Source of the DNA: Komagataeibacter melaceti
GTDB taxonomy: Bacteria > Pseudomonadota > Alphaproteobacteria > Acetobacterales > Acetobacteraceae
Reading direction: 5' to 3'
DNA: 64,000 nucleotides
Assembly: GCF_003403295.1 (NCBI RefSeq)
Contig: NZ_QUWV01000020.1
Location: forward strand, 1-64,000
Part shown: in pieces, positions 8,819 through 58,915 of the stretch
How positions within the stretch are numbered: position 1 is the stretch's first letter
Layout of the letters: every line of letters begins with the position of its first letter
Program-made: the position numbers and the translations under genes
Notes under the pieces: generated by a model
The model's input: the letters and a program-made list of their open reading frames with translations, nothing else
Databases searched by the model: none
Told to the model about the DNA's origin: nothing

Positions 8819-9724
8819 TCACGCGCCGCGGATCAGCGTTCCGGGGCCAGCTTCGGTGAACAGTTCGAGCAGGCAGGAATGCTGCACCCGGCCATCAAGG
8901 ATGACGGCGGCCTTGGCGCCCGCGCGCACGGCCTCGAGGCAGGTCTCGACCTTCGGGATCATGCCGCCGGAAATCATGCCACTGGCAATGCCACGGCGCG
9001 CGTCTTCCGCCGTCAGTTCCGGGATCAGCTTACCCTCACCATCCAGCACGCCGGGCACGTCCGTCAGCATGAGCAGGCGGCTGGCGTTGATCGCCCCCGC
9101 AATCGCGCCCGCTGCCGTATCGGCATTGATGTTGTAGGTCTCGCCCTGTTCACCCACGCCGATGGGCGCGATGACGGGGATCAGGCCCGAGCCGGACAGC
9201 GCATAGATCACGCGCGGGTCGATGCGGGTCGGTTCACCCACAAAACCCAGATCCAGCAGGCGATCGGTCTCGACACCGCCCTCACGCGCGCGGCGCTGGA
9301 GCCTGCGGGCGGAAATCAGGCCGCCATCAAGGCCGGAAATGCCCACCGCCAGCGCACCGGCGCGGTTAATCAGGCCCGCCACCTGCTTGTTCACCTTGCC
9401 ACCCAGCACCATCTCGATCACGTCGATCATGGCGGCATCGGTCACGCGCAGGCCGTCGATGAAGGTGGATTCGATCTGCAGGCGCTTGAGCATGGCGCTG
9501 ATCTGCGGGCCGCCGCCATGAACCACCACGGGGTTGACGCCAACCTGCTTGAGCAGCGCGATGTCATGGCCAAACGCGGTGGAAAGCGAGGTATCGACCA
9601 TCGCGCTGCCACCATATTTCACGACCACCGTATCACCCGCATAGCGGCGCAGATACGGCAGCGCCCTGGCCAGAACCTCGGCCCGTACCTGTGCTTCCCG
9701 GTCGCCCGGTCCTGTTCCTGTCAT
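8819..9724 (-). CDS. argB: Acetylglutamate kinase
   Basis: Second step of arginine synthesis: phosphorylates N-acetyl-L-glutamate. The 301-aa amino-acid kinase shows VVKYGGSAM near residue 36, the substrate loop [11 protein letters not shown], and [12 protein letters not shown] near the C-terminus. The ATG at 9724 has AAGGGA 8 nt before it. A longer in-frame start would add an atypical 17-residue extension. It lies downstream of engB and upstream of dapD-dapE, grouping arginine and lysine genes. Confidence 0.97.
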
Positions 9725-9792
9725 CCGAACGGTCCCTTCGCTCCTGACTGCTGAATATCCATGCCTGCCGACCACGCCACCATGGGCCGGAA

Positions 9793-10470
9793 CTACATTC
9801 CCGCCCGCGCCGGGTTGGCCAGGCGGGCCAGTTCCGCTCGCAGCACCTCTATCCCCATGCCGGTCTGGCTGCTGGTGGCCAGTACCTCAGGGAAGGCGGC
9901 GGCATGCGTGGCCACGACCTCGCTGACCGCACGCAGCTTGGCCGCAAGCGCATTGGGCTTTGGCACGTCACATTTGGTCAGCACCACCTGAAACGTCACG
10001 GCGGCGCGGTCCAGCAGCTTCATGATTTCCCCATCCGACTCCTTGAGCTCCACCCGGCTGTCCAGCAGCAGCACGACGCGGCGCAGCGTGGGCCTGCCGC
10101 GCAGGTAGGAGAACATCATCCCCTGCCAGTCATCCTTGACGTCCTTGGCCGCCTTAGCGAATCCGTAGCCCGGCATGTCCACCAGCGTCAGGCGGTCGGC
10201 CAGCTCAAAGAAATTGAGCTGCTTGGTCCGCCCCGGCTGCGAGGACGCACGCGCCAGCGCCCGCCGCCCGGTCAGGGCGTTGATCAGGCTGGACTTGCCC
10301 ACGTTGGAGCGGCCCGCGAACGCGATCTCGGGCAGGAGCGGGTCAGGAAGCTGGCCCAGCTTCTGCGCGCCGAAGACGAAATTGAACTCGCCCGAAAACA
10401 GCACGCGCCCGATTTCCCGGTCGCGTTCCTGTTCTTCCGGCGTCGGTGTGGGGGAAGTGAAATCCACCAT
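9793..10470 (-). CDS. engB: Ribosome biogenesis GTPase EngB (YihA/YsxC)
   Basis: TRAFAC-class GTPase needed for 50S subunit maturation. The 225-aa product has G1 GRSNVGKSS (53-61), the G3 segment DMPGYGFA, G4 TKCD and a C-terminal SSQTG (G5). The ATG at 10470 is supported by AGGGA 6 nt upstream; a longer frame would run back into yidC. It is 14 bp downstream of yidC in the rpmH-rnpA-yidD-yidC-engB series conserved in many Alphaproteobacteria. Confidence 0.96.
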   Translation of the reverse strand: MVDFTSPTPTPEEQERDREIGRVLFSGEFNFVFGAQKLGQLPDPLLPEIAFAGRSNVGKSSLINALTGRRALARASSQPGRTKQLNFFELADRLTLVDMPGYGFAKAAKDVKDDWQGMMFSYLRGRPTLRRVVLLLDSRVELKESDGEIMKLLDRAAVTFQVVLTKCDVPKPNALAAKLRAVSEVVATHAAAFPEVLATSSQTGMGIEVLRAELARLANPARAGM

Positions 10471-10484
10471 CTTGGTCCCTGTGG

Positions 10485-12236
10485 TTATTTCTTCCCGGCC
10501 GGAAGTGCCGTCTTGCCGCCCGCGCCCCGGTTCATGCGCCGCTGGATGACCGTCTGCTGCGCCATGGTGAGCAGGTTGTTCCAGCAATAGTAGATCACCA
10601 GGCCCGAGGGCTGCCGCGCCATGAAGAAGGTGAAGATGATCGGCATGAACTGGAACATCTTCTGCTGCGCCGGGTCAGCCGCCGGGGCGGGGTTGAGACG
10701 CTGCTGGGCAAACATGGTCAGCCCGAACGCGATGGGCCACAGGCCAAGCTGGAGCATGGGCGAGATGACCGACGGGTCCCAAGGGATCAGCCCGAACAGG
10801 GTGAACAGGTTTGTCGGGTCAAATGCCGAAAGATCGTGAATCCAGCCAAAGAAGGGCGCATGGCGCATCTCGATCGTGACGTACAGGTCCTTATAGAGGC
10901 ACCAGAACACCGGGATCTGCAGCAGCATGGGCAGGCAGCCGCTGGCGGGGTTGACACCTTCCTGCTTGTACAGCCCGATCATCTGCTGGTTGAGCGCCAT
11001 CTGGTCATCCTTGTAGCGCTCACGCAGGGCTTTGATCTTGGGCTGGAGCTGGCGCATCTTGCCCATGGAGTGGAACTGCTTGGTCGCCAGCGGGAAGAAC
11101 AGCGCCTTGACCAGCAGGGTGAACGCCATGAGTGCGAGGCCAAAGTTGCCCAGCATGGTGTTCAGCCAGTCCAGCACGGTAAAGATCGGACGCGTCAGGA
11201 ACGCGAACCAGCCGAAATCCACCGCTTTCCAGAAATCGGGGATATGCAGGCTGGACTCGTATTTTTCCAGCAGCGGCACTTCCTTCGCACCGGCAAAGAC
11301 ATGGCTGGCGGTAGCCGCCTCGCCACCCGCCGCGACCACCAGCGGCGCGCGGGCGGTAAAGCCCACCTCATACGTGCCCTTGTCGCCCCCGGCGGACTGG
11401 TAGGCATAGTTACCCGCCACGTCGCTATCCTGCTGCGGGACCACGGCGGTCAGCCAGTACTTGTCGGTAATGCCGGCCCAGCCGCCCTGGCCCGACTTGC
11501 TCCACGCGATGTTGCCCGGCGGCACGGCACCCTTGCGCAGGGACTTGTACGAGCTTTCGTCCAGCCTGCGGTCAATGACCGAGATCGGCCCCTCATGCAC
11601 AAGGTAGCCACCCGTCTCGACCGGCGTGTAGCCGCGCTCCACGCGTGAGAACGGGTAGAGGGAAACAGCCTCGCCACCGTGGTTGATCACCTTCTGCGTC
11701 ACCGAGAACATGTAGTCGTGGTCGATGGCGACAGTAATCTGGAACACCTGGCCCTGCCCGTTATCCCAGCTCAGGGTCACGGGCTGCGCCTGTGTCAGCG
11801 TGTCATGGTCGGCGGTCCACAGGGTGTTGGAGTCCGGCACGCGCACCTGCGCGCCGCTGACATTGGCCCAGCCGACCTCGACGAGGTTGGGCTGGTCCTT
11901 GCCGCGCGGCTCCAGCACGCGCACCAGCGGGCTGCCGTCCTTTACGGTCTCGTGATAGTTCTTGAGCACGAGGTCATCGAGACGCGCGCCACGCAGGTCG
12001 AGCGAGCCATGCACCCGGTCGGCGTCGATCGCGACGCGCGGGTCGGACCGGCCGTCATCCGCCACGGCGGCTGGAGTCGGGGCCGCACCGGCATCCGCCA
12101 CGGGCGGCAGGGCGGGCGCGCCTGCGGGGGCCTGCTGTTCCACCGTCTTATGGTTCTGCTGAGGCAGGAAATACTCAAAACCAACCAGCACCACGGCAGA
12201 CAGTAATGTTGCCACCATAAAACGCTTGATATCCAT
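10485..12236 (-). CDS. yidC: Membrane protein insertase YidC
   Basis: Inserts proteins into the inner membrane, alone or with Sec. The 583-aa Gram-negative form has an N-terminal anchor (MVATLLSAVVLVGFEYFL), a large periplasmic beta-domain (about 60-345) and the conserved insertase core from about 365 (ALMAFTLLVKALFFPLATKQ, GCLPMLLQIPVFWCLYK, MPIIFTFFMARQPSGLVIYY). The C-terminus is basic, suited to ribosome contact. Its start overlaps the yidD stop by one base (TGATG). Confidence 0.98.
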   Translation of the reverse strand: MDIKRFMVATLLSAVVLVGFEYFLPQQNHKTVEQQAPAGAPALPPVADAGAAPTPAAVADDGRSDPRVAIDADRVHGSLDLRGARLDDLVLKNYHETVKDGSPLVRVLEPRGKDQPNLVEVGWANVSGAQVRVPDSNTLWTADHDTLTQAQPVTLSWDNGQGQVFQITVAIDHDYMFSVTQKVINHGGEAVSLYPFSRVERGYTPVETGGYLVHEGPISVIDRRLDESSYKSLRKGAVPPGNIAWSKSGQGGWAGITDKYWLTAVVPQQDSDVAGNYAYQSAGGDKGTYEVGFTARAPLVVAAGGEAATASHVFAGAKEVPLLEKYESSLHIPDFWKAVDFGWFAFLTRPIFTVLDWLNTMLGNFGLALMAFTLLVKALFFPLATKQFHSMGKMRQLQPKIKALRERYKDDQMALNQQMIGLYKQEGVNPASGCLPMLLQIPVFWCLYKDLYVTIEMRHAPFFGWIHDLSAFDPTNLFTLFGLIPWDPSVISPMLQLGLWPIAFGLTMFAQQRLNPAPAADPAQQKMFQFMPIIFTFFMARQPSGLVIYYCWNNLLTMAQQTVIQRRMNRGAGGKTALPAGKK

Positions 12237-48501: not shown

Positions 48502-48638
48502 CCAACCGCTTCCCATATCCTGCGCATGCCGGCGGCCCGTCCTTTCATGCCGTGGGAGCATGCCCCCCTGTCGGCGCGGGCGTGACCACACCCACGGACT
48601 CTACCGGTTCCGTACTGCTGTATGTTAGGTTGCCCGCC

Positions 48639-50372
48639 ATGTCACGCCCGATTCCCCCCCACCGGCCCAGCCCGGAGAACCCTTCGCTCACCATTCCGCT
48701 TGACCTGAATGCCGTTGGTCCCGCCGCCCCCCGGCAGGCGGGCAGCGGGCGCACCATCGTGCTCGTGGGCCTGATGGGGGCGGGCAAGACGACCATCGGC
48801 CGCATCCTGGCCACGCGGCTGGGTATTCCGTTTGTCGATTCGGATGAGGAAATCGAGCGCGCCGCCGGATGCACCATCGCCGACCTGTTCGAGAAATATG
48901 GCGAACCCGAATTCCGCCGCGGCGAGCGGCTGGTCATCCGCCGCCTGCTGGCCGGGCCGCCGGTCGTGCTGGCCACGGGCGGCGGCGCTTTCATGGACGC
49001 GCGCACCCGCGCCAGCGTGCGTGAGCATGCCACCTCCATCTGGCTGCGCTGCCCGCTGCCGGTGCTGGTGCAGCGCGTGGCGGAACGGACCCATCGCCCG
49101 CTGCTTAACGTGGCCGCCCCGCATGCGGTGCTGGCCGACCTCATGCGCGTGCGCCATCCGGTCTATGCGGAAGCGGATATCATCGTGGATTGTGGAGAAG
49201 ATAGCGTGGAACACAGCGCCGACCATGTCATAGGGGCCCTGAAACAGGGCCAGCAGCCCCTGCGTGTGCCGGTGCGGCTGGAACGTGGCAGTTACGATGT
49301 CATCATCGGCTCCGACGTGATCCGGCGGGCCGGGGCCCTGCTTGCCCCCGTGCTGCCGCAGAAGCGCGTGATGATCCTGACCGATGAGACCGTAGCCCCC
49401 CTGCACCTGCCCCGCCTGCTGGAAGGGCTGGAGGAAACCGGCACCCGCGCGGAAGTCATCACCATCCCCCCCGGTGAAGGCTCCAAGACCATCAGCATGT
49501 ATGAACGCGTGACCAACGCGCTGCTGGAAGCCCATGTCGAACGCGACACTACGGTCGTGGCGCTGGGCGGGGGCGTGGTGGGGGATCTGGCCGGGTTCTG
49601 CGCTGCGACCACGCTGCGCGGCCTGCCGTTCGTGCAGATTCCGACAACCCTGCTCTCACAGGTGGATTCGTCCGTGGGGGGCAAGACCGGCATCAACACC
49701 CCGTTTGGCAAGAACCTGCTGGGCGCGTTCCATCAGCCCATCGCGGTGCTGGCCGATACCTCCACCCTGGCTACCCTGCCGGTGCGCGAACTGCGCGCGG
49801 GGTATGCCGAGATCGTCAAGTCCGGGCTGCTGGGGGATGCGGGGCTGTTCGACTGGTGCGAACGCAACGGGGCCGAGGTGCTGGCGGGCAATCCGGCCAT
49901 ACAGGCCGAGGCCATCCGCATGGCCTGCGCGTTCAAGGCGCGCGTGGTGATTGCCGATGAGCGTGAGGAGCGCAAGACCGATGGCCGGGCGCTGCTCAAT
50001 CTCGGCCATACCTTCGGCCATGCGCTGGAGGCAGAAATGGGCTATGACGGCAGCCTGCTGCATGGGGAGGCCGTGTCCATCGGCCTGCGGCTGGCGTTCA
50101 TGCTTTCGGTCCGGCTGGGGTACTGCGCGATCGAGGATCTGGAACGCGTGACCCGCCATCTCGAACAGCTGTCCATGCCCGCGCGCGTGGGGGATACGGG
50201 GCGGACCTTCTCCGCCACGCAGCTTGTGCGCAACATGCAGCGCGACAAGAAAATGCGTGACGGCCGCCTGTCCTTCGTGCTGGTGCATGGCATCGGCCGG
50301 GCCTTTACCTGCCGTGACGTGCCCGATGACGCCGTGCTTGAGGTCCTGCGCGCGGATGGCTGCACGCCCTGA
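48639..50372 (+). CDS. aroKB: Fused shikimate kinase/3-dehydroquinate synthase
   Basis: Two shikimate-pathway enzymes in one 577-aa chain. Residues 38-205 are shikimate kinase: P-loop GLMGAGKT (44-51), DSDEEIE, FRRGE and ATGGGAF. Residues 215-577 are NAD-dependent 3-dehydroquinate synthase: [47 protein letters not shown] and [10 protein letters not shown] with zinc ligands. The steps are not consecutive (AroB is step 2, AroK step 5). Separate aroK-aroB pairs are usual; this fusion is known in Acetobacteraceae. ATG 48639 is preferred over an upstream in-frame start. Confidence 0.96.
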
Positions 50373-50652
50373 GCAGAAGACCCCTCCTCACGACTATGTG
50401 ACGTTTTTACAACATCCGGCCCTTCGCCATGTCACGCGGGGGGCCATTTACCATATTTCAATCCCTGCCCCGCACAACGGTCCGGCCATGGAACGATGCG
50501 GGCTGGCGCTGCGCCACTTCCCCCATACTTCCCGCTGGCACTCCGGATAACGGCCCACGGGCCGATTGTGTCAACACGTATCAGGCCGATGTGGAACATG
50601 CCCCCATTTCCGCAAGCATGAAGGCGTCTGATCGAACAGCAAGGATGGGAAT

Positions 50653-51873
50653 ATGCGTCTTCGCGCGGCATTGCTGGCGGCATCCCAGATCATGGTGCCT
50701 GTTACCGGCGCCATGGCAACGACCATAACAGGCCCTTATGTCGATATTGGCGGTGGGTACGACCTGACCCAGACCCAGCATGTCCATGATTATGACAGGC
50801 AGCGGCTCAATGACATCAACAACACCTATCTCAAGGGCGCGCCCTCTTCCGTAACCAGCGCCTTTGACAAGGGAATCGACCCCGGCCTGCATGAACGCCA
50901 GCAGGTGCGCCATGGCGATGGATGGACCGGATTCGGCGCCTTCGGCTGGGGCTTCGGCAACGGCCTGCGCGCCGAGGTGGAAGGGGTCTATAACTGGTCC
51001 GACCTCAGCAGCATTTCCGCCACCACGGGCGACCCGAAGGGCCACCGCATGCATGGCCGCACCGATGGTAGCGACCGCTCCTATGGCGGGTTTGTCAATG
51101 TACTGTACGACATCGACCTCAAGCGCCTGTTCGATATCGACGTGCCGGTGACCCCGTTCGTCGGTGTCGGCGCCGGTTACCTGTGGCAGAACGTAAGCGG
51201 CATCACCACGCTGCAGCATACCATAAGCCAGCATGGCACGAATGGCAGCTTCGCCTATCAGGGCATCGTGGGTGCGGCCTATGACATCCCGGGGGTGGCG
51301 GGGCTGCAGATGACCACCGAATACCGCATGATCGGGCAGGTCGAATCGTTTGATATGGGCACGATCAACCAGTCCTATTCCGGCCCGCTGGGGCGCGACA
51401 CCACCCACCTGCGCTACGACCAGCGCTTCAACCACCAGTTCATCGTGGGCGTGCGCTATGCGTTCAACACCGCGCCCCCGCCGCCACCACCTGCCCCCGC
51501 CATCGTGCCGGCGGCCCCCGTCGCCTCACGCACCTATCTGGTGTTCTTTGACTGGGACGGCGCTGCCCTGACCGGCCGTGCACGCGAAATCGTGACCGAG
51601 GCCGCGCAGGCATCCACCCACGTCCAGACCACCCGCATCGAGGTGAATGGCTATACGGACAGTTCCGCCGCCCATCCCGGCCCGCGTGGCGAGAAGTACA
51701 ACCTTGACCTGTCCCTGCGCCGCGCGGACAGCGTGAAGGCCGAGCTGATCCGTGACGGCGTGGCCGCCAGCGCCATCGACATCCATGGCTATGGCGAGGC
51801 CCACCCGCTGGTGCCGACCGGCCCCGGCACGCGTGAACCCCAGAACCGGCGGGTCGAGATCATCCTGCACTGA
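50653..51873 (+). CDS. gmpA: OmpA-family outer membrane protein, GmpA-like, long-loop paralogue
   Basis: First of three tandem OmpA-like genes, 406 aa. It has a signal peptide ending near TGAMA, an eight-stranded barrel (about 25-270), a Pro linker (PPPPPPAPA) and a C-terminal peptidoglycan-binding OmpA domain (IEVNGYTDSS, then LSLRRADSVKAELI). It is 43 residues longer than its neighbours: loop 1 is 27 longer, loop 2 is 12 longer, loop 3 is 4 shorter and loop 4 is 8 longer. In G. intermedius the first gene with an extra loop sequence is GmpA, induced through GinI/GinR and GinA and repressing acetic acid fermentation; the symbol is given on that match. The 280-bp upstream gap holds no gene. 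Confidence 0.85.
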   Translation: MRLRAALLAASQIMVPVTGAMATTITGPYVDIGGGYDLTQTQHVHDYDRQRLNDINNTYLKGAPSSVTSAFDKGIDPGLHERQQVRHGDGWTGFGAFGWGFGNGLRAEVEGVYNWSDLSSISATTGDPKGHRMHGRTDGSDRSYGGFVNVLYDIDLKRLFDIDVPVTPFVGVGAGYLWQNVSGITTLQHTISQHGTNGSFAYQGIVGAAYDIPGVAGLQMTTEYRMIGQVESFDMGTINQSYSGPLGRDTTHLRYDQRFNHQFIVGVRYAFNTAPPPPPPAPAIVPAAPVASRTYLVFFDWDGAALTGRAREIVTEAAQASTHVQTTRIEVNGYTDSSAAHPGPRGEKYNLDLSLRRADSVKAELIRDGVAASAIDIHGYGEAHPLVPTGPGTREPQNRRVEIILH

Positions 51874-51909
51874 CCGCACACAACAGCCCGTAAAATGAAT
51901 GAAATGAAG

Positions 51910-51935
51910 GGGGAGCGTCCCGGCGCTCCCCTTTT
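51910..51935 (+). terminator. Rho-independent terminator of gmpA
   Basis: GGGGAGCG (51910-51917) pairs with CGCTCCCC (51924-51931) across a 6-nt loop, followed by TTTT. It lies 36 bp after the gmpA stop, so gmpA and gmpB are probably separate transcripts. Confidence 0.8.
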
Positions 51936-52269
51936 CACATCGAATCGTTCCGGTCTTTTACCGGCATACACAGATGTTCCTTTGATGCCAGTGACCTATG
52001 CAAAATCGGGATACCTATCGGGGATATTTCATAAAACCCTTATAAATGCAGGGATTTTGACGTTTGTGACTAAAGATGCCTGAAAGATATGTGCTTTTTT
52101 TGTCACAACGTCCGCACTAGCGGCATTTAGCCCATTCTCAAGCGGGTTCAGACACGCTAAGTCCGCATCATAGCTTGCGGGTAATCTCAGGCTGCCCTGT
52201 ATCGGGGCAAATCCATTGCCCGGATCACAGACAGGGCCTGCCCTGCAATAATAGTTTAAGGACTCAACC
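51936..52269 (+). other. gmpA-gmpB intergenic region
   Basis: No gene is seen. The region is A/T-richer than the flanking genes. It holds an imperfect tandem repeat ATCGGGATA/ATCGGGGATA (52005-52013 and 52016-52025) and a TTGACG (52057-52062) without a clear -10 at normal spacing. The gmpB Shine-Dalgarno AAGGA is about 10 nt before its ATG. An own promoter for gmpB is likely but not pinpointed. Confidence 0.4.
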
Positions 52270-53361
52270 ATGCGTCTTCGCGCAGCGTTACTGGCAACCA
52301 GCCTGCTGGCAGCGACACCGTTCGCAGCCAAGGCCACGACCATTACCGGCCCCTATGTCGATATTGGCGGCGGTTACAACCTGACCCAGACCCAGCACGG
52401 GCACTTTGCTGATGAAAACTCCGGCCCCGGCCGTGAGAAGGTCGGCCATCGTCATGGCTGGACCGGCTTCGGCTCCGTTGGCTGGGGCTTCGGCAACGGC
52501 CTGCGCGCCGAGGTTGAAGGTGACTACAACTGGTCCGAAATCTACAGCAAGTCCCGTGGGGACAAGGGCAGCGACCGCTCCTATGGCGGCTTTGTCAACG
52601 TGCTGTATGACATCGACCTCAAGCGTCTGTTCAACATCGACGTGCCCGTGACCCCGTTCGTCGGTGTCGGTGCCGGCTACCTGTGGCAGAACACGCATGA
52701 TGCGACCATCGGCGCGAACAACGCCCAGGGCGCGCGCAGCATGAGCGGCACCAAGGGTGGCTTCGCCTATCAGGGCATCGTGGGTGCGGCCTACGACATC
52801 CCGGGCGTGCCGGGCCTGCAGATGACCACCGAATACCGCATGATCGGTCAGCCGCAGTCCTTCACCATGGGCAACTTCACGGCTGAAAATGGTCACGCCA
52901 GCTTTGACCATCGCTTCAACCACCAGTTCATCGTAGGCGTCCGCTACGCGTTCAACAACGCGCCGCCGCCGCCGCCGCCGGCCCCCGCCGTAGTGCCGCC
53001 CGCGCCGACGGCCGCCCGCACCTACCTGGTGTTCTTCGACTGGGATGGCGCTGCCCTGACCGGCCGTGCGCGTGAGATCGTGGCCGAAGCCGCACAGGCT
53101 TCCACCCACATCCAGACCACCCGCATCGAAGTTAACGGTTACACCGATAACTCCGCCGCCCACCCCGGCCCGCGTGGTGAGAAGTACAACCTTGGCCTGT
53201 CCCTGCGTCGTGCGGACAGCGTGAAGGCTGAACTGATCCGTGACGGCGTGCCCGCCAACGCGATCGACATCCACGGCTATGGTGAAGCCCACCCGCTGGT
53301 GCCGACTGGCCCCGACACGCGTGAGCCCCAGAACCGTCGCGTCGAGATCATCCTGCACTGA
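52270..53361 (+). CDS. gmpB: OmpA-family outer membrane protein, GmpB-like
   Basis: Second tandem copy, 363 aa: signal peptide (LLATSLLAATPFAAKA), eight-stranded barrel with short loops, Pro linker (PPPPPPAPAVVPP) and OmpA domain with NGYTDNS and LGLSLRRADSVKAEL, whose Asp and Arg match the peptidoglycan-binding pair of OmpA. It differs from the third copy at only four residues. AAGGA precedes the ATG, and it has its own terminator. Reported gmpB and gmpC of G. intermedius are not quorum-sensing induced; the symbol follows gene order. Confidence 0.85.
   Translation: MRLRAALLATSLLAATPFAAKATTITGPYVDIGGGYNLTQTQHGHFADENSGPGREKVGHRHGWTGFGSVGWGFGNGLRAEVEGDYNWSEIYSKSRGDKGSDRSYGGFVNVLYDIDLKRLFNIDVPVTPFVGVGAGYLWQNTHDATIGANNAQGARSMSGTKGGFAYQGIVGAAYDIPGVPGLQMTTEYRMIGQPQSFTMGNFTAENGHASFDHRFNHQFIVGVRYAFNNAPPPPPPAPAVVPPAPTAARTYLVFFDWDGAALTGRAREIVAEAAQASTHIQTTRIEVNGYTDNSAAHPGPRGEKYNLGLSLRRADSVKAELIRDGVPANAIDIHGYGEAHPLVPTGPDTREPQNRRVEIILH
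52290..53361 (+). repeat. Near-identical direct repeat, copy 1 (gmpB coding region)
   Basis: From about codon 8 to the stop, the gmpB and gmpC coding sequences are almost identical at DNA level, with scattered mostly silent changes. Flanking DNA is unrelated. Copy 2 begins 1453 bp downstream. Confidence 0.9.
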
Positions 53362-53380
53362 TCTGACCGATTCATTACTG

Positions 53381-53415
53381 AAAAAGGGGGAGCACGGTGT
53401 GCTCCCCCTTTTTTT
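53381..53415 (+). terminator. Rho-independent terminator of gmpB
   Basis: GGGGGAGCAC (53386-53395) pairs with GTGCTCCCCC (53399-53408) with a 3-nt loop. The stem is extended by A-T pairs (AAAAA from 53381) and followed by seven T (53409-53415). Confidence 0.93.
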
Positions 53416-53722
53416 ATTGCCTGTTGCTTACGCATCCTTCCGGGCAGGAAAGATTGTGTCCTTCTTGCCACAAAATACTCTAAATCTTTTATTACAATAT
53501 TGTTTCCACAACGATATTCCCATTTAGTAACTTGTTATTAAATATAAAAAGCATCTACTCCGCCACCGCGAACGATAGTGTCACCTTTTTGCCGTTCCCG
53601 AATGAAAAACAGGACGGAACCAGAAGAAGCATGCTGTGTTTGGGATGGTAGATGGATTAATCTTCGCATCATTAAAACGATGTGGTTTACAAAAAAGTAA
53701 TAACATGAGGAAGGATGATCAT
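53416..53722 (+). other. gmpB-gmpC intergenic region, A/T-rich
   Basis: No gene is seen. The stretch 53470-53560 is strongly A/T-rich compared with the genome and is unlike the gmpA and gmpB upstream regions, so each paralogue has its own control region. AGGAAGGA about 12 nt before 53723 is the gmpC ribosome-binding site. Confidence 0.5.
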
Positions 53723-54814
53723 ATGCGTCTCCGCTCTGCCCTGCTGGCAACCAGTCTGCTGGCAGCGACACCGTTCGCAGCCAAGGCCACGACCATTACC
53801 GGCCCCTATGTCGATATTGGCGGCGGTTACAACCTGACCCAGACCCAGCACGGGCACTTTGCTGATGAAAACTCCGGCCCCGGCCGTGAGAAGGTCGGCC
53901 ATCGTCATGGCTGGACCGGCTTTGGTTCCGTTGGCTGGGGCTTTGGCAACGGCCTGCGCGCCGAGGTTGAAGGTGACTACAACTGGTCCGAAATCTACAG
54001 CAAATCCCGTGGGGACAAGGGCAGCGACCGCTCCTATGGCGGCTTTGTCAACGTGCTGTATGACATCGACCTCAAGCGCCTGTTCAACATCGACGTGCCC
54101 GTGACCCCGTTCGTCGGTGTCGGTGCCGGCTACCTGTGGCAGAACACGCATGACGCGACCATCGGCGCGAACAACCCGCAGGGCGCGCGCAGCATGAGCG
54201 GCACCAAGGGTGGCTTCGCCTATCAGGGCATCGTGGGTGCGGCCTACGACATCCCGGGCGTGCCGGGCCTGCAGATGACCACCGAATACCGCATGATCGG
54301 TCAGCCGCAGTCCTTCACCATGGGCAACTTCACGGCTGAAAATGGTCACGCCAGCTTTGACCACCGCTTCAACCACCAGTTCATCGTAGGCGTCCGCTAC
54401 GCGTTCAACAACGCGCCGCCGCCGCCGCCGCCGGCCCCCGCCGTGGTGCCGCCCGCGCCGACGGCCGCCCGCACCTACCTGGTGTTCTTCGACTGGGATG
54501 GCGCTTCCCTGACCGGCCGTGCGCGTGAGATCGTGGCCGAAGCCGCACAGGCTTCCACCCACATCCAGACCACCCGCATCGAGGTTAACGGTTACACCGA
54601 TAACTCCGCCGCCCACCCCGGCCCGCGTGGTGAGAAGTACAACCTTGGCCTGTCCCTGCGTCGCGCGGACAGCGTGAAGGCTGAACTGATCCGTGACGGC
54701 GTGCCCGCCAACTCCATCGACATCCACGGTTATGGCGAAGCCCACCCGCTGGTGCCGACCGGCCCCGACACGCGTGAGCCCCAGAACCGTCGTGTGGAAA
54801 TCATCCTGCACTGA
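53723..54814 (+). CDS. gmpC: OmpA-family outer membrane protein, GmpC-like
   Basis: Third tandem copy, 363 aa, with the same architecture as the second: signal peptide, eight-stranded barrel, Pro linker, OmpA peptidoglycan-binding domain ending RRVEIILH. By reading both translations it differs from the second at four places: A/S in the signal peptide, A/P in loop 3, and A/S twice in the OmpA domain. ATG 53723 aligns with the other copies and has AGGAAGGA upstream; a longer in-frame start is rejected. Its own terminator follows. Confidence 0.85.
   Translation: MRLRSALLATSLLAATPFAAKATTITGPYVDIGGGYNLTQTQHGHFADENSGPGREKVGHRHGWTGFGSVGWGFGNGLRAEVEGDYNWSEIYSKSRGDKGSDRSYGGFVNVLYDIDLKRLFNIDVPVTPFVGVGAGYLWQNTHDATIGANNPQGARSMSGTKGGFAYQGIVGAAYDIPGVPGLQMTTEYRMIGQPQSFTMGNFTAENGHASFDHRFNHQFIVGVRYAFNNAPPPPPPAPAVVPPAPTAARTYLVFFDWDGASLTGRAREIVAEAAQASTHIQTTRIEVNGYTDNSAAHPGPRGEKYNLGLSLRRADSVKAELIRDGVPANSIDIHGYGEAHPLVPTGPDTREPQNRRVEIILH
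53743..54814 (+). repeat. Near-identical direct repeat, copy 2 (gmpC coding region)
   Basis: Partner of the repeat at 52290-53361, same orientation, offset 1453 bp. Homology stops at the first codons on one side and at the stop codon on the other. Confidence 0.9.
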
Positions 54815-54825
54815 CGCAGCATGAT

Positions 54826-54866
54826 GCAGGGTGGCAGGCAACTGCCCCCTGCTTCCTTTTTATTTT
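54826..54866 (+). terminator. Rho-independent terminator of gmpC
   Basis: GCAGGG and GGCAG (54826-54837, one bulged T) pair with CTGCC and CCCTGC (54842-54852) across GCAA. A T-rich tail TTCCTTTTTATTTT follows. Confidence 0.8.
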
Positions 54867-54963
54867 CAGTTCCCCTACCCTGTTGAGGTGCCTGTCAGGC
54901 ACAAAGGAAAGCTGTCGCCCTTTTTTTCAGTCCCCGCCCGCACAGCAGGCGAAAGGAAATATC

Positions 54964-55485
54964 TTGTCCACTCCGCCCCGTGAGAAAGTCATACAATTTC
55001 TGAAATTCGGCGTTGTTGGCTTGCTGGGGCTGTGCTGGGACACGACCACCGTGTACTCCCTGCGGCCATTCGTGGGGCTGACGATCGCGACGCTTGCGGC
55101 CTATTTCATCGCCGCGTCCATCAACTGGCTGATCAACCGGCTGTGGACATTCCGTGGCGCAGGCAACCAGCACCATTTCATCATCCAGTGGCTGCGTTTC
55201 CTGGCCGGTAATTCACTGGGCTTTTTCCTGAACCGGGGCTGCGTGTTCACGCTGTTCCATGTCTCGCCGGTCTTCAAGGCCTATCCCGTGCTGGCGCTCG
55301 CGGCGGGGGCCGTGACGGGCATGATGGCGAACTTCCATATCAGCCGGAAGCTTGTTTTCAACGCCACCCATGCCGCCCCACGCCAGAGCGCGACAATCCT
55401 GCCGTTTCAGCCCGAACGCGCGGTCGCCCAGAATGCGGTCTCCAGCCGGACGGATGTTGCGAATTCCCGCACCAAGGCTGGATAA
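54964..55485 (+). CDS. GtrA family membrane protein
   Basis: Small polytopic protein of 173 aa with four hydrophobic helices (FGVVGLLGLCWDTTTVYSL; IATLAAYFIAASINWLINRL; FLAGNSLGFFLNRGCVFTLF; YPVLALAAGAVTGMMANFHI). It matches the GtrA fold, often proposed to flip polyprenyl-linked sugars. The first credible start is TTG 54964 with AAAGGA upstream. Its last 26 codons run antisense through the end of tenA (55407-55485). No glycosyltransferase is adjacent. Confidence 0.85.
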   Translation: MSTPPREKVIQFLKFGVVGLLGLCWDTTTVYSLRPFVGLTIATLAAYFIAASINWLINRLWTFRGAGNQHHFIIQWLRFLAGNSLGFFLNRGCVFTLFHVSPVFKAYPVLALAAGAVTGMMANFHISRKLVFNATHAAPRQSATILPFQPERAVAQNAVSSRTDVANSRTKAG

Positions 55486-56108
55486 CGCGCCTGCGCGCCA
55501 CAGGCCGCGCCAACCTTTTCCAGCCTGTGGATGCCCTCTTCCACCAGTTCCGTATATTCCGCGCCGCCATACAGCGCGATCCATGACCAGTAGGGATTCC
55601 CTTCGCGCTTCGTGGCCGGGTCCGCGTGCAGCCGCGCGCCAAGTTCCGCATAGCCGATCAGGCACGGGGCCATTGTCACCAGCAGGTCAAGCAGGTCGCC
55701 CGTCTGGGCGCGGTCGAGTATAAAGCGGCTATAGGCAAGTAATTCGAGCGATTCCTCCGCCTGTTCCAGTGCTGTTTCATCTATTCCCCAGCCCGCGCAA
55801 TACGCCACATGCATAGACAGTTCGGTATTGAGTATGCCCGACAGCAGATGGGCGGCATGGCGCATACCCGTTACCGTATCGGCCTTGTGCACTGCCAGCG
55901 CGCATGCCCGGGTATACTGGATCAGGTACAGGTAGTCCTGGATAAGGAAGTTCCTGAACGCTTCCGGCGCCAGCGTGCCATCACCCACGCTCCTGACAAA
56001 GGGGTGGCGCACGAACTCCATCCACTGCGCCATGCAGTCATTGCGCAACCGCCCCGCCAGCCCCTGTGTCAGGAGGGGCCAGTCCCGTTCCGCCTGCCAT
56101 TCGTGCAT
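55407..56108 (-). CDS. tenA: TenA family thiaminase II-like protein
   Basis: All-helical enzyme that hydrolyses thiamin breakdown products to salvage the pyrimidine HMP. The 233-aa product has HPFVRSVGDGTL, FLIQDYLYLIQYTRACALA, the catalytic Cys region MAPCLIGYAELG and NPYWSWIALYGGAEYTELVEE near the C-terminus. AAGGGATACAGG precedes ATG 56108. No TPP riboswitch or thi operon is seen upstream. The 3' end overlaps the convergent gtrA-like gene by 79 bp. Confidence 0.92.
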   Translation of the reverse strand: MHEWQAERDWPLLTQGLAGRLRNDCMAQWMEFVRHPFVRSVGDGTLAPEAFRNFLIQDYLYLIQYTRACALAVHKADTVTGMRHAAHLLSGILNTELSMHVAYCAGWGIDETALEQAEESLELLAYSRFILDRAQTGDLLDLLVTMAPCLIGYAELGARLHADPATKREGNPYWSWIALYGGAEYTELVEEGIHRLEKVGAACGAQARYPALVREFATSVRLETAFWATARSG

Positions 56109-56263
56109 CCTGTATCCCTTTTTGCTCACGCAGCCGGACCGTCGCGCACCGGCCATATGGCAGAACACGCATGTTCGTACTTCCGGTCTGGTGCTAGCTG
56201 CGCTAGGTGAATGAATCCGGTTTTATATCTATATCTTCAATACAGGATCGTCTGTCTCCCGCC

Positions 56264-58915
56264 ATGCCCACAACAAACGACATTCGTGCCACCTTCCTCG
56301 ACTATTTTGCCGGGAATGGGCATCAGATCGTGCCGTCCTCGTCCCTGGTGCCGCACAACGATCCGACACTGCTGTTTACCAATGCTGGTATGGTGCAGTT
56401 CAAGAACGTGTTCACCGGGCAGGAAACACGCCCCTACTCCCGCGCCACCACGGCCCAGAAGGTGGTCCGCGCGGGCGGCAAGCACAACGACCTGGACAAT
56501 GTGGGCTACACCGCCCGGCATCACACCTTTTTCGAGATGATGGGCAACTTCTCGTTCGGGGACTATTTCAAGGCGGAAGCGATCGAGCTGGCCTGGAACC
56601 TGGTCACCGGCACCTTCGGCCTGCCCAAGGACCGGCTGCTGACCACCGTCTATGCCGATGACGAGGAAGCGGCTTCCCTGTGGCGCAAGATCGCCGGGCT
56701 GTCCGATGACCGGATCATCCGCATCCCCACATCGGACAATTTCTGGCGCATGGGTGACACCGGCCCCTGCGGCCCGTGTTCCGAGATATTCTACGACCAC
56801 GGCCCCGAAGTGGCAGGCGGCCCGCCCGGCTCCCCCGATGAGGATGGCGACAGGTTCACCGAGATCTGGAACCTCGTGTTCATGCAGTATTTCGAAAACC
56901 CGCCCGGCACGCGCTCGCCCCTGCCGCGCCCGTCCATTGACACCGGGCTGGGGCTGGAGCGTTTCGCCGCCATCCTGCAGGGCAAGCGGGACAATTATGA
57001 CATTGATACCTTCCGCGCCCTGATCCTCGCCTCGGCCGAGGTCACGGGACAGGACCCCGATGGCCCGTTCAACGCCAGCCACCGGGTGGTGGCCGACCAC
57101 CTGCGTTCCACCTCGTTCCTGATTGCCGATGGCGTGCTGCCCTCCAAGGACGGGCGGGGCTACGTGCTGCGCCGCATCATGCGCCGCGCCATGCGCCACC
57201 TGCACATGATGGGCACGACGGAACCGACCTTCTACCGCCTCGTCCCCGCGCTGATCCGCCAGATGGGCGAAGCCTATCCCGAACTGGTGCATGCCCGTGC
57301 GCTGATCGAGGAGACGATGAAGGGCGAGGAAGAACGCTTCAAGGCGATGCTCGACCGCGGCCTGTCGCTGCTGGCGGACGAGACGGAGCGGCTGGGCGAT
57401 GGCGCGCCCCTGCCGGGCGATGTCGCGTTCAAGCTGTACGACACCTTCGGCTTCCCGCTTGACCTGACGCAGGACGCCCTGCGTGGCAGCAGCCATGACG
57501 TGGACGTGGCCGGCTTCAACGAGGCCATGGACGTGCAACGCAAGCGCGCGCGCGCCGCATGGAGCGGATCGGGCGACAGCGCGACCGAAACCGTATGGTT
57601 CGAAGCCCGCGACACCTTCGGCGCGACCGAGTTCCTGGGCTACACCACCGAAACCTCGGATGCCGAGGTCCAGACGGTCATCGTCGATAACGCGCAGGTT
57701 GAAGCAGCCGGTCCCGGCACCAAGGTGGCGCTGCTGCTGAACCAGACCCCCTTCTATGGCGAAAGCGGCGGCCAGGTGGGTGACACCGGCACCATCACCG
57801 CGCCCGGCCTGCACATTGCCGTAACCGATACGCAGAAGAAGCTGGGCGACCTGATCGTGCATTACGGCACGGTCATCGAAGGCACGATCCGCCCCGGCAT
57901 GGCGGTCACCGCACAGGTTGACCATGACCGCCGCAGCGCCATCCGCGCGCATCATTCCGCCACCCACCTGCTGCATGAGGCCCTGCGCCGCCGCCTGGGC
58001 GCGCATGTGACCCAGAAGGGCAGCCTGAACGCGCCCGACCGCCTGCGCTTTGACGTAAGCCAGCCGCGCCCCATCACGCCCGAGGAACTGGCCAGCATCG
58101 AGGCCGAGGTCAACGCCCGCATCCGTGAAAACACGGAAGTGACCACGCGCCACATGACCCCGGAAGAAGCCATCGAGAACGGGGCCATGGCCCTGTTTGG
58201 CGAGAAGTACGGCGATGAGGTGCGCGTGGTCTCCATGGGCGCACCGGAAGAAGGCCGCGCGGGCTGGTCGATCGAACTGTGCGGTGGCACCCATGTGCGC
58301 CGCACGGGTGATATCGGCCTGTTCCGCATCACATCGGAAAGCGGTGTCTCGTCTGGCGTGCGCCGTATCGAGGCGGTGACGGGCCGCGCGGCTGAAAACA
58401 CGACCATCGCCACGGAGGAGCGTCTGCTCCAGATGGCCGCGATGCTGCGCGTTCCCCCCGCCGAGGCCCCGGAGCGCCTTGCCGTGCTGCTGGATGAGCG
58501 CAAGGTCATGGAACGCCAGATCTCGGACCTGCAGCGCAAGCTGGCCTCGGGCACGCAGGCGGCCACGACGGTGGAAGACATCAACGGCATCAAGCTCGAT
58601 GCCCGCAATGTGGGTGAACTGCCGCCCAAGGAACTCAAGCCGCTGGCGGATTCCCTGCGCACCGAACTCGGCTCCGGCGTGGTTGCCCTGATTTCCACCG
58701 CCGATGGCAAGGGCAGCATCGTGGTCGCCGCCACCCCTGACCTGGCGGAGCGGGTCGATGCGGTGGCGCTGGTGCGCGCGGCAAGTGCTGCCATGGATGG
58801 CAAGGGCGGCGGTGGCCGCCGTGACATGGCGCAGGCGGGCGGCCCGGATATTGGCAAGGTCGATGCCGCTCTGGCCGCCGTGCGCGACGCGCTGCGGCAG
58901 GTGGCCACGGCCTGA
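56264..58915 (+). CDS. alaS: Alanine-tRNA ligase
   Basis: Charges tRNA-Ala and edits mischarged Ser and Gly. The 883-aa product has the class II catalytic core (1-250; motif 2 segment [17 protein letters not shown]), tRNA-recognition helices, the editing domain with zinc ligands HSATHLLH and CGGTHV, and the C-terminal oligomerisation domain (about 760-883, with [12 protein letters not shown]). ATG 56264 is the family-standard start; no near Shine-Dalgarno is visible. Confidence 0.98.

Follow-up and report, generated by a model that had tools for sequence, protein, structure and literature searches.

The 64,000-nucleotide window analysed here, from Komagataeibacter melaceti (contig NZ_QUWV01000020.1; unprefixed positions are those of the window), carries three tandem OmpA-family genes on the forward strand, at 50653-51873, 52270-53361 and 53723-54814, with products of 406, 363 and 363 amino acids. 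For the third gene we took the ATG at 53723 as the start, whereas the mechanical list of open reading frames (ORFs) has a GTG at 53636. All three products match the Pfam OmpA domain PF00691 (E-values of 1.6e-14, 4.2e-15 and 4.5e-15 in gene order), in agreement with an earlier note on this DNA that had described three adjacent same-strand OmpA-like genes. We call them gmpA-, gmpB- and gmpC-like (below, gmpA, gmpB and gmpC). The cluster is genuine and its type is already known; in this strain it is apparently uncoupled from the known regulator of gmpA, the GinI/GinR quorum-sensing system.

The same note had assigned to each gene a signal peptide, an eight-stranded barrel, a proline linker and an OmpA domain, and this plan holds up. 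Signal peptides were judged by eye, without a predictor. Copies 2 and 3 score above the cut-off of the barrel model PF13505. For copy 1, the AlphaFold model allows a reading as eight barrel strands (residues 26-47, 80-101, 105-123, 133-153, 166-186, 190-211, 218-244 and 247-270, with neighbouring DSSP pieces joined), followed by a proline-rich linker (about 273-292) and a separate C-terminal domain (298-399). This last domain matches solved OmpA-like domains in the PDB at the sequence level. By fold, the PDB matches of copy 1 are outer-membrane barrels of several sizes. A model of E. coli OmpA heads the Foldseek list, but the TM-scores are low, at 0.28-0.38 (by query length) in the first ten matches. 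A scan of copies 1 and 2 against NCBIfam gave nothing above cut-off among the matches listed.

The first gene is distinguished by its enlarged loops, another feature that the earlier reading had recognised correctly. With limits set by the strand positions of the copy 1 model, copy 1 has 43 residues in loop 1 and 18 in loop 2, where copies 2 and 3 have 16 and 6. With gaps scored as differences, copies 1 and 2 are 68% identical overall; the figure is 94% for the C-terminal domain but 16% for loop 1 and 6% for loop 2. Where gmpA is complete in the genus (17 genomes), loop 1 measures 37-48 residues and loop 2 14-19, and the corresponding ranges in B and C copies (n=27) are 16-22 and 6-8; loop 1 is also shorter than that of GmpA in 12 aligned loci from outside the genus. 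Between species the loops are by far the most variable part, with a mean entropy of 1.1-1.8 bits, compared with 0-0.4 in the strands, linker and C-terminal domain and 0.6 in the signal peptide. In a phylogenetic tree, 15 first copies form one clade with a support of 0.998 (those of genomes G012 and G009 were left out).

In Gluconacetobacter (Komagataeibacter) intermedius NCI1051, Iida, Ohnishi and Horinouchi reportedly described in 2008 a row of three OmpA-family genes, gmpA-gmpB-gmpC, of which the first has additional loop sequence, and the cluster in the window is like it in these respects. Deletion of gmpA in NCI1051 is reported to have raised acid yield or growth on ethanol. The earlier note had proposed both this identity and a cell-density control of fermentation. 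The first part is supported, for a gmpABC-type cluster with the long-loop gene first; the second is unsupported, since, unlike NCI1051, the K. melaceti genome yielded no GinI, no GinR and, judged by candidates, no GinA (see below).

To place the cluster in the genus we use our own genome numbers, G000 being K. melaceti and G012 its nearest relative. A gmpA-type gene was found in all 19 Komagataeibacter genomes searched (K. melaceti included), as fragments in two, and the full triad lies on one contig in 12. It is incomplete in the other seven: contig ends truncate it in G003, G005, G006, G009 and G010, while G002 (K. europaeus LMG 18890) has two copies and G016 a broken second copy. Short-read assemblies may collapse repeats, and lower copy counts are uncertain for that reason. 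Across the 12.5-kb gmp region the K. melaceti genome shares 89.5% identity with G012; with G009 (K. saccharivorans LMG 1582), compared over 5.8 kb, the identity is 83.7%. The order aroKB, three ompA-type genes, alaS is kept in Komagataeibacter.

Outside the genus we examined 69 loci, drawn from the best 80 of a homologue listing. Here ompA is single, apart from a partial second gene in Novacetimonas maltaceti (1 of 69; some loci end at contig ends), with aroK-aroB upstream at 69 of 69 and alaS present at 62; among the matches listed, the best segments are 53-66% identical to GmpA. A draw of 120 genomes from the family contained 27 with a close GmpA relative (E 1e-100), in three copies in two Komagataeibacter, two copies in three genomes and one copy in twenty-two. 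Within the genomes sampled (19 of the genus, 120 of the family) the triad is restricted to Komagataeibacter, and to our knowledge the three-gene arrangement is confined to vinegar producers such as this genus. The cluster thus shares its locus and domain plan with the ompA gene that follows aroKB in Gluconacetobacter, Acetobacter, Gluconobacter, Asaia and others, but differs in having three copies where these mostly have one, and in the longer loop 1 of GmpA. As a single ompA is the usual state at this place in other acetic acid bacteria, we read the trio as a local amplification of that gene. Neighbouring double copies of this ompA were also seen in two other genomes of the family, at G087:C1:1626489-1629245 (with identical scores) and at G078:C2:643381-645726, and these are apparently separate tandem duplications.

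The ompA copy that the other acetic acid bacteria in our sample carry at this locus, and the very high variability of the loops, would also suit a plainer reading, in which these are ordinary housekeeping OmpA proteins and the long loops of the first copy come from selection by phages or neighbours, unrelated to oxidative fermentation. However, two reviews, in the excerpts available, state that GinI/GinR controls ginA in K. intermedius and present GmpA as a quorum-sensing-controlled inhibitor of acetic and gluconic acid formation (PMC7889782, PMC8102297), and on balance we doubt the housekeeping reading, possible as it is. The same excerpts place GmpA expression under positive control by GinA, direct according to one review and in an unknown manner according to the other (PMC7889782, PMC8102297).

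The second and third copies are nearly the same gene. They have 28 base differences in 1089 positions and 4 residue differences in 363 (98.9% protein identity), which corresponds to 97.4% B-C DNA identity within G000; compared with G012, B-B and C-C are each 89.3% identical. B-C protein identity is at least 94.5% in 7 of 12 genomes (G000, G012, G013, G014, G015, G017 and G018) and 78-86% in the other five (G001, G004, G007, G008 and G011), a list of 12 that omits G010. Gene conversion or a recent re-duplication is the simplest reading of this near-identity; since the stretches just upstream of B and C are dissimilar (by eye), conversion of the coding part most likely keeps GmpB and GmpC alike in K. 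melaceti.

Because a separate 5' region precedes each of the three genes and a separate hairpin follows it, gmpA, gmpB and gmpC are probably three separate transcription units. The hairpins lie on the forward strand at 51906-51935 after gmpA (-22.2 kcal/mol, z -4.0; a likely transcription end), at 53380-53414 after gmpB, with a terminal T run (-27 kcal/mol, z -7.1; a likely terminator), and at 54823-54855 after gmpC, before a T-rich run (-23.9 kcal/mol, z -3.5; a likely terminator). All three fold better than shuffled sequences, and the terminator calls rest on this RNA folding and not on a consensus scan. Only gmpA is said to respond to the gin system (Iida et al. in 2008), which would fit separate units.

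The 5' region of gmpA (50373-50652, forward strand) ends in about 75 bases (50575-50652) that are strongly conserved in 17 genomes, those of K. melaceti and 16 others; G003 and G010, where contig ends cut gmpA, were left out of the alignment. No column splits the 7 genomes positive for LuxI, the synthase of N-acylhomoserine lactones (AHLs), from the 10 LuxI-negative ones, although this is a weak test, as related genomes share states. All 10 LuxI-negative genomes with a complete gene (K. melaceti included, and counting G013, which keeps ginR) have a long-loop gmpA, and the cut gmpA of G003 and G010 has a long loop 1 too. Both the long loops and the conserved leader of gmpA occur with or without LuxI.

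A structured RNA leader before gmpA was considered and rejected (fold z of -0.25, with a covariation term of only -0.34 in consensus folding), and a leader hairpin drawn by hand showed no two-sided changes. Rfam gave no match in the window region or in two leaders from outside the genus, and a promoter scan found 2 matches where 1.7 were expected, which is no signal. We also compared the ompA leaders of the outgroup loci (69, minus 3 identical duplicates, leaving 66, of which 60 were aligned), and the 60-sequence alignment contained no consensus pair. In many Acetobacter, Gluconobacter and Gluconacetobacter these leaders (L018-L086, about 90 bases upstream) share short blocks of conserved sequence (GCATC and GAGGACGAAA are examples) that surround a putative hairpin.

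Conservation of the 75 bases irrespective of LuxI would agree with gmpA being regulated through its own 5' leader, or through a non-AHL regulator that is fed by the GinA pathway in gin-positive strains. This proposal is a tenable but rather doubtful one, as it finds no sign of conserved RNA structure, no Rfam family and no promoter match above chance to lean on.

The cell-density control that the earlier note had inferred for gmpA was not borne out when we looked for ginI, ginR and ginA homologues. The K. melaceti assembly (248 contigs, 100% complete by the completeness tool) contains no match to the LuxI-type AHL synthase family PF00765, which was found in 7 of the 19 genus genomes; 14 named control genomes also gave none. 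There is no LuxR AHL-binding domain (PF03472) in the K. melaceti genome either, with 11 candidates scored and other LuxR-type regulators not searched for. This domain is present in 16 of the 19 genus genomes, being absent from K. melaceti, G005 and G009. Identity to the GinR of G012 is 58-60% in G001, G002, G006, G013, G016, G017 and G018 and at most 35% at the other loci compared; by this measure only part of the PF03472 matches in the genus would be GinR-like. The GinI protein of G012 found nothing in the K. melaceti genome beyond chance level (best E of 0.311). Matched against PLSDB, GinI returned 413 records, all below 60% identity and with no acetic acid bacterium among the matches listed.

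As stand-ins for the true GinA we used two small conserved ORFs downstream of ginI, and neither was found in the K. melaceti genome. Strong matches to candidate 1 occur in 7 of the 19 genomes and weak ones in five more (E up to 0.1); G012 has weak matches only. In K. europaeus the ORF of this candidate has 89 codons, matching the GinA length of 89 amino acids in the review excerpt (PMC7889782 / PMC8102297). Candidate 2 occurs in eight genomes, the seven with LuxI and G013. In 7 of the 19 Komagataeibacter genomes ginR and ginI form a pair followed by a small ORF, as in the AHL system of K. intermedius, but we could not find such a pair in K. melaceti. At G013:C3 (L169, about 9841-10700) ginR and the small downstream ORFs are kept and most of ginI is gone: the alignment to G016 jumps from 9654 to 10223 while G013 is continuous, so that about 568 bases were lost in a natural deletion of ginI.

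The surroundings of the gin genes suggest how they may come and go. In G012, ginR-ginI lies on a 118-kb contig, which is very probably a plasmid because the gin neighbourhood matches plasmid unnamed3 of K. saccharivorans CV1 (located by DNA similarity) around repC and an error-prone polymerase gene. The ginR, ginI and small ORF of G012 lie within about 5.5 kb between two blocks, with transposase-like ORFs beside them (recognised by eye; no family library was searched). In the K. melaceti genome both flanking blocks lie on one contig (93.3% identity over 5.0 kb and 98.1% over 4.2 kb), and the 628 bases between them encode a BrnT toxin and a BrnA antitoxin (G000:C56, L208, 14964-15465); in CV1 the blocks are nearly adjacent. 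BrnT/BrnA, near-adjacent blocks and gin genes at one and the same site point to the gin genes being one of several cargoes at this plasmid site. The gin loci of G001, G002, G006/G017 and G013/G016/G018 have little in common beyond the gin part, with one extra block of 0.9 kb common to G016 and G017 (blocks above 600 bases were listed, some of the contigs being short). In the K. melaceti genome the sequences that flank the gin genes in G018 are found on two contigs, without the gin part. Plasmid unnamed3 of CV1 (NZ_CP023039.1, L212) carries at 530-1895, near repC, a second and different LuxI/LuxR pair; its LuxI is itself recognised by PF00765, and no pair of this type and no copy of this LuxI was found in the K. 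melaceti genome.

Since the GinI and GinR genes were not found in the genome, gmpA is very unlikely to be switched by them in K. melaceti. That gmpA is nonetheless under GinI/GinR/GinA quorum sensing, with the gin genes missed in a fragmented assembly or with an AHL system of an unrecognised type, seems to us improbable: the 248 contigs, the plasmid-like location of ginR-ginI in the nearest relative and, from an excerpted report, an AHL biosensor signal in a K. xylinus strain with no luxI found (PMC5908849) speak for it, but the G012 gin flanks lie on one K. melaceti contig at 93-98% identity with BrnT/BrnA between them, the G018 flanks are there without the gin part, and the LuxR AHL-binding domain was not found in any protein, other LuxR-type regulators not having been searched for.

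We consider it likely, and with good confidence, that the three genes are the Komagataeibacter gmpABC cluster, a local ompA amplification whose gmpA, in K. melaceti, is very unlikely to be GinI/GinR-switched and is under other control or constitutive. Several points weigh against this interpretation. The identification as gmpABC is based on gene number, order, locus and loop pattern and not on alignment to the GmpA, GmpB and GmpC of NCI1051. Copy 1, the GmpA-like one, lacks a PF13505 match and gave only Surface_Ag_2, barely above cut-off, and its AlphaFold model is only moderately confident (mean pLDDT 73.8, pTM 0.53). The consensus terminator scan called a single site, on the reverse strand after gmpA, compared with a shuffle mean of 3.8, and none of the three forward-strand hairpins. 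With an assembly in 248 contigs a small replicon may have been lost, and the ginA search used candidates in place of the true GinA sequence. Finally, K. xylinus CGMCC 2955 is described, in the part of the report available, as having luxR, no luxI found and AHL biosensor-positive cultures (PMC5908849), so that a missing luxI is no proof of AHL absence.

Under the reading of an amplified ompA cluster free of GinI/GinR, each product would sit as a barrel in the outer membrane and hold peptidoglycan with its C-terminal domain, tying the outer membrane to the cell wall, as inferred from the OmpA family, and GmpA would be set apart by its long, fast-changing surface loops. Expression of gmpA would depend on something other than GinI/GinR, or would be constitutive. 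The gin genes would be accessory cargo, carried on a plasmid-like contig in the nearest relative, whereas a gmpA-type gene is present in 19 of 19 genus genomes searched. As a tentative extension, for which we would claim somewhat less than an even chance, fermentation control by GmpA could be an old envelope function independent of quorum sensing, to which the gin genes are a mobile, sometimes plasmid-borne addition that can be lost or swapped (here for BrnT/BrnA) while gmpA is kept, together with its long loops and conserved leader.

As the excerpted reviews describe it, the GinI/GinR-GinA-GmpA chain lets quorum sensing act as a brake on acetic acid fermentation in K. intermedius. With a gmpA-type gene in 19 of 19 genomes and a LuxI-type synthase in 7 of 19, strains like K. 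melaceti offer natural cases for the effect of GmpA without the quorum layer, and in choosing strains for vinegar or cellulose the presence of gmpABC should not be taken as presence of quorum sensing. A patchy occurrence of AHL genes in the genus was already known, as follows from the excerpts of a genome survey that has them in three Komagataeibacter type species (PMC8776678) and of the report of luxR without luxI in CGMCC 2955 (PMC5908849). Among the open-licence papers searched we found none that sets gmpABC presence against gin presence, which is no proof that there is no such paper. One comparison of fermentation phases in K. europaeus had an OmpA protein going up, according to an excerpted study (PMC9100681).

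The cluster has conserved neighbours on both sides. Upstream, an aroK-aroB fusion (shikimate kinase/3-dehydroquinate synthase) occupies 48552-50372 on the forward strand (ORF coordinates, the true start may differ), with the NCBIfam aroB and shikimate kinase models above cut-off. Downstream, a forward-strand ORF at 54883-55485 encodes a small membrane protein, presumably GtrA-like from its look; it has no NCBIfam match (54967-55482 scanned), and a homologue is present at 66 of 79 loci, some of which end before that position. It is followed by a TenA-type thiaminase II gene on the reverse strand (55407-56168; NCBIfam salvage_TenA above cut-off) and by alaS, for alanyl-tRNA synthetase, on the forward strand (56207-58915; NCBIfam alaS above cut-off, 56255-58912 scanned). 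Elsewhere in the genome, a more distant OmpA-type paralogue lies at G000:C74:102535-103506 (L170); it is 54% identical to GmpA over residues 82-406 and has counterparts in the other genus genomes listed.

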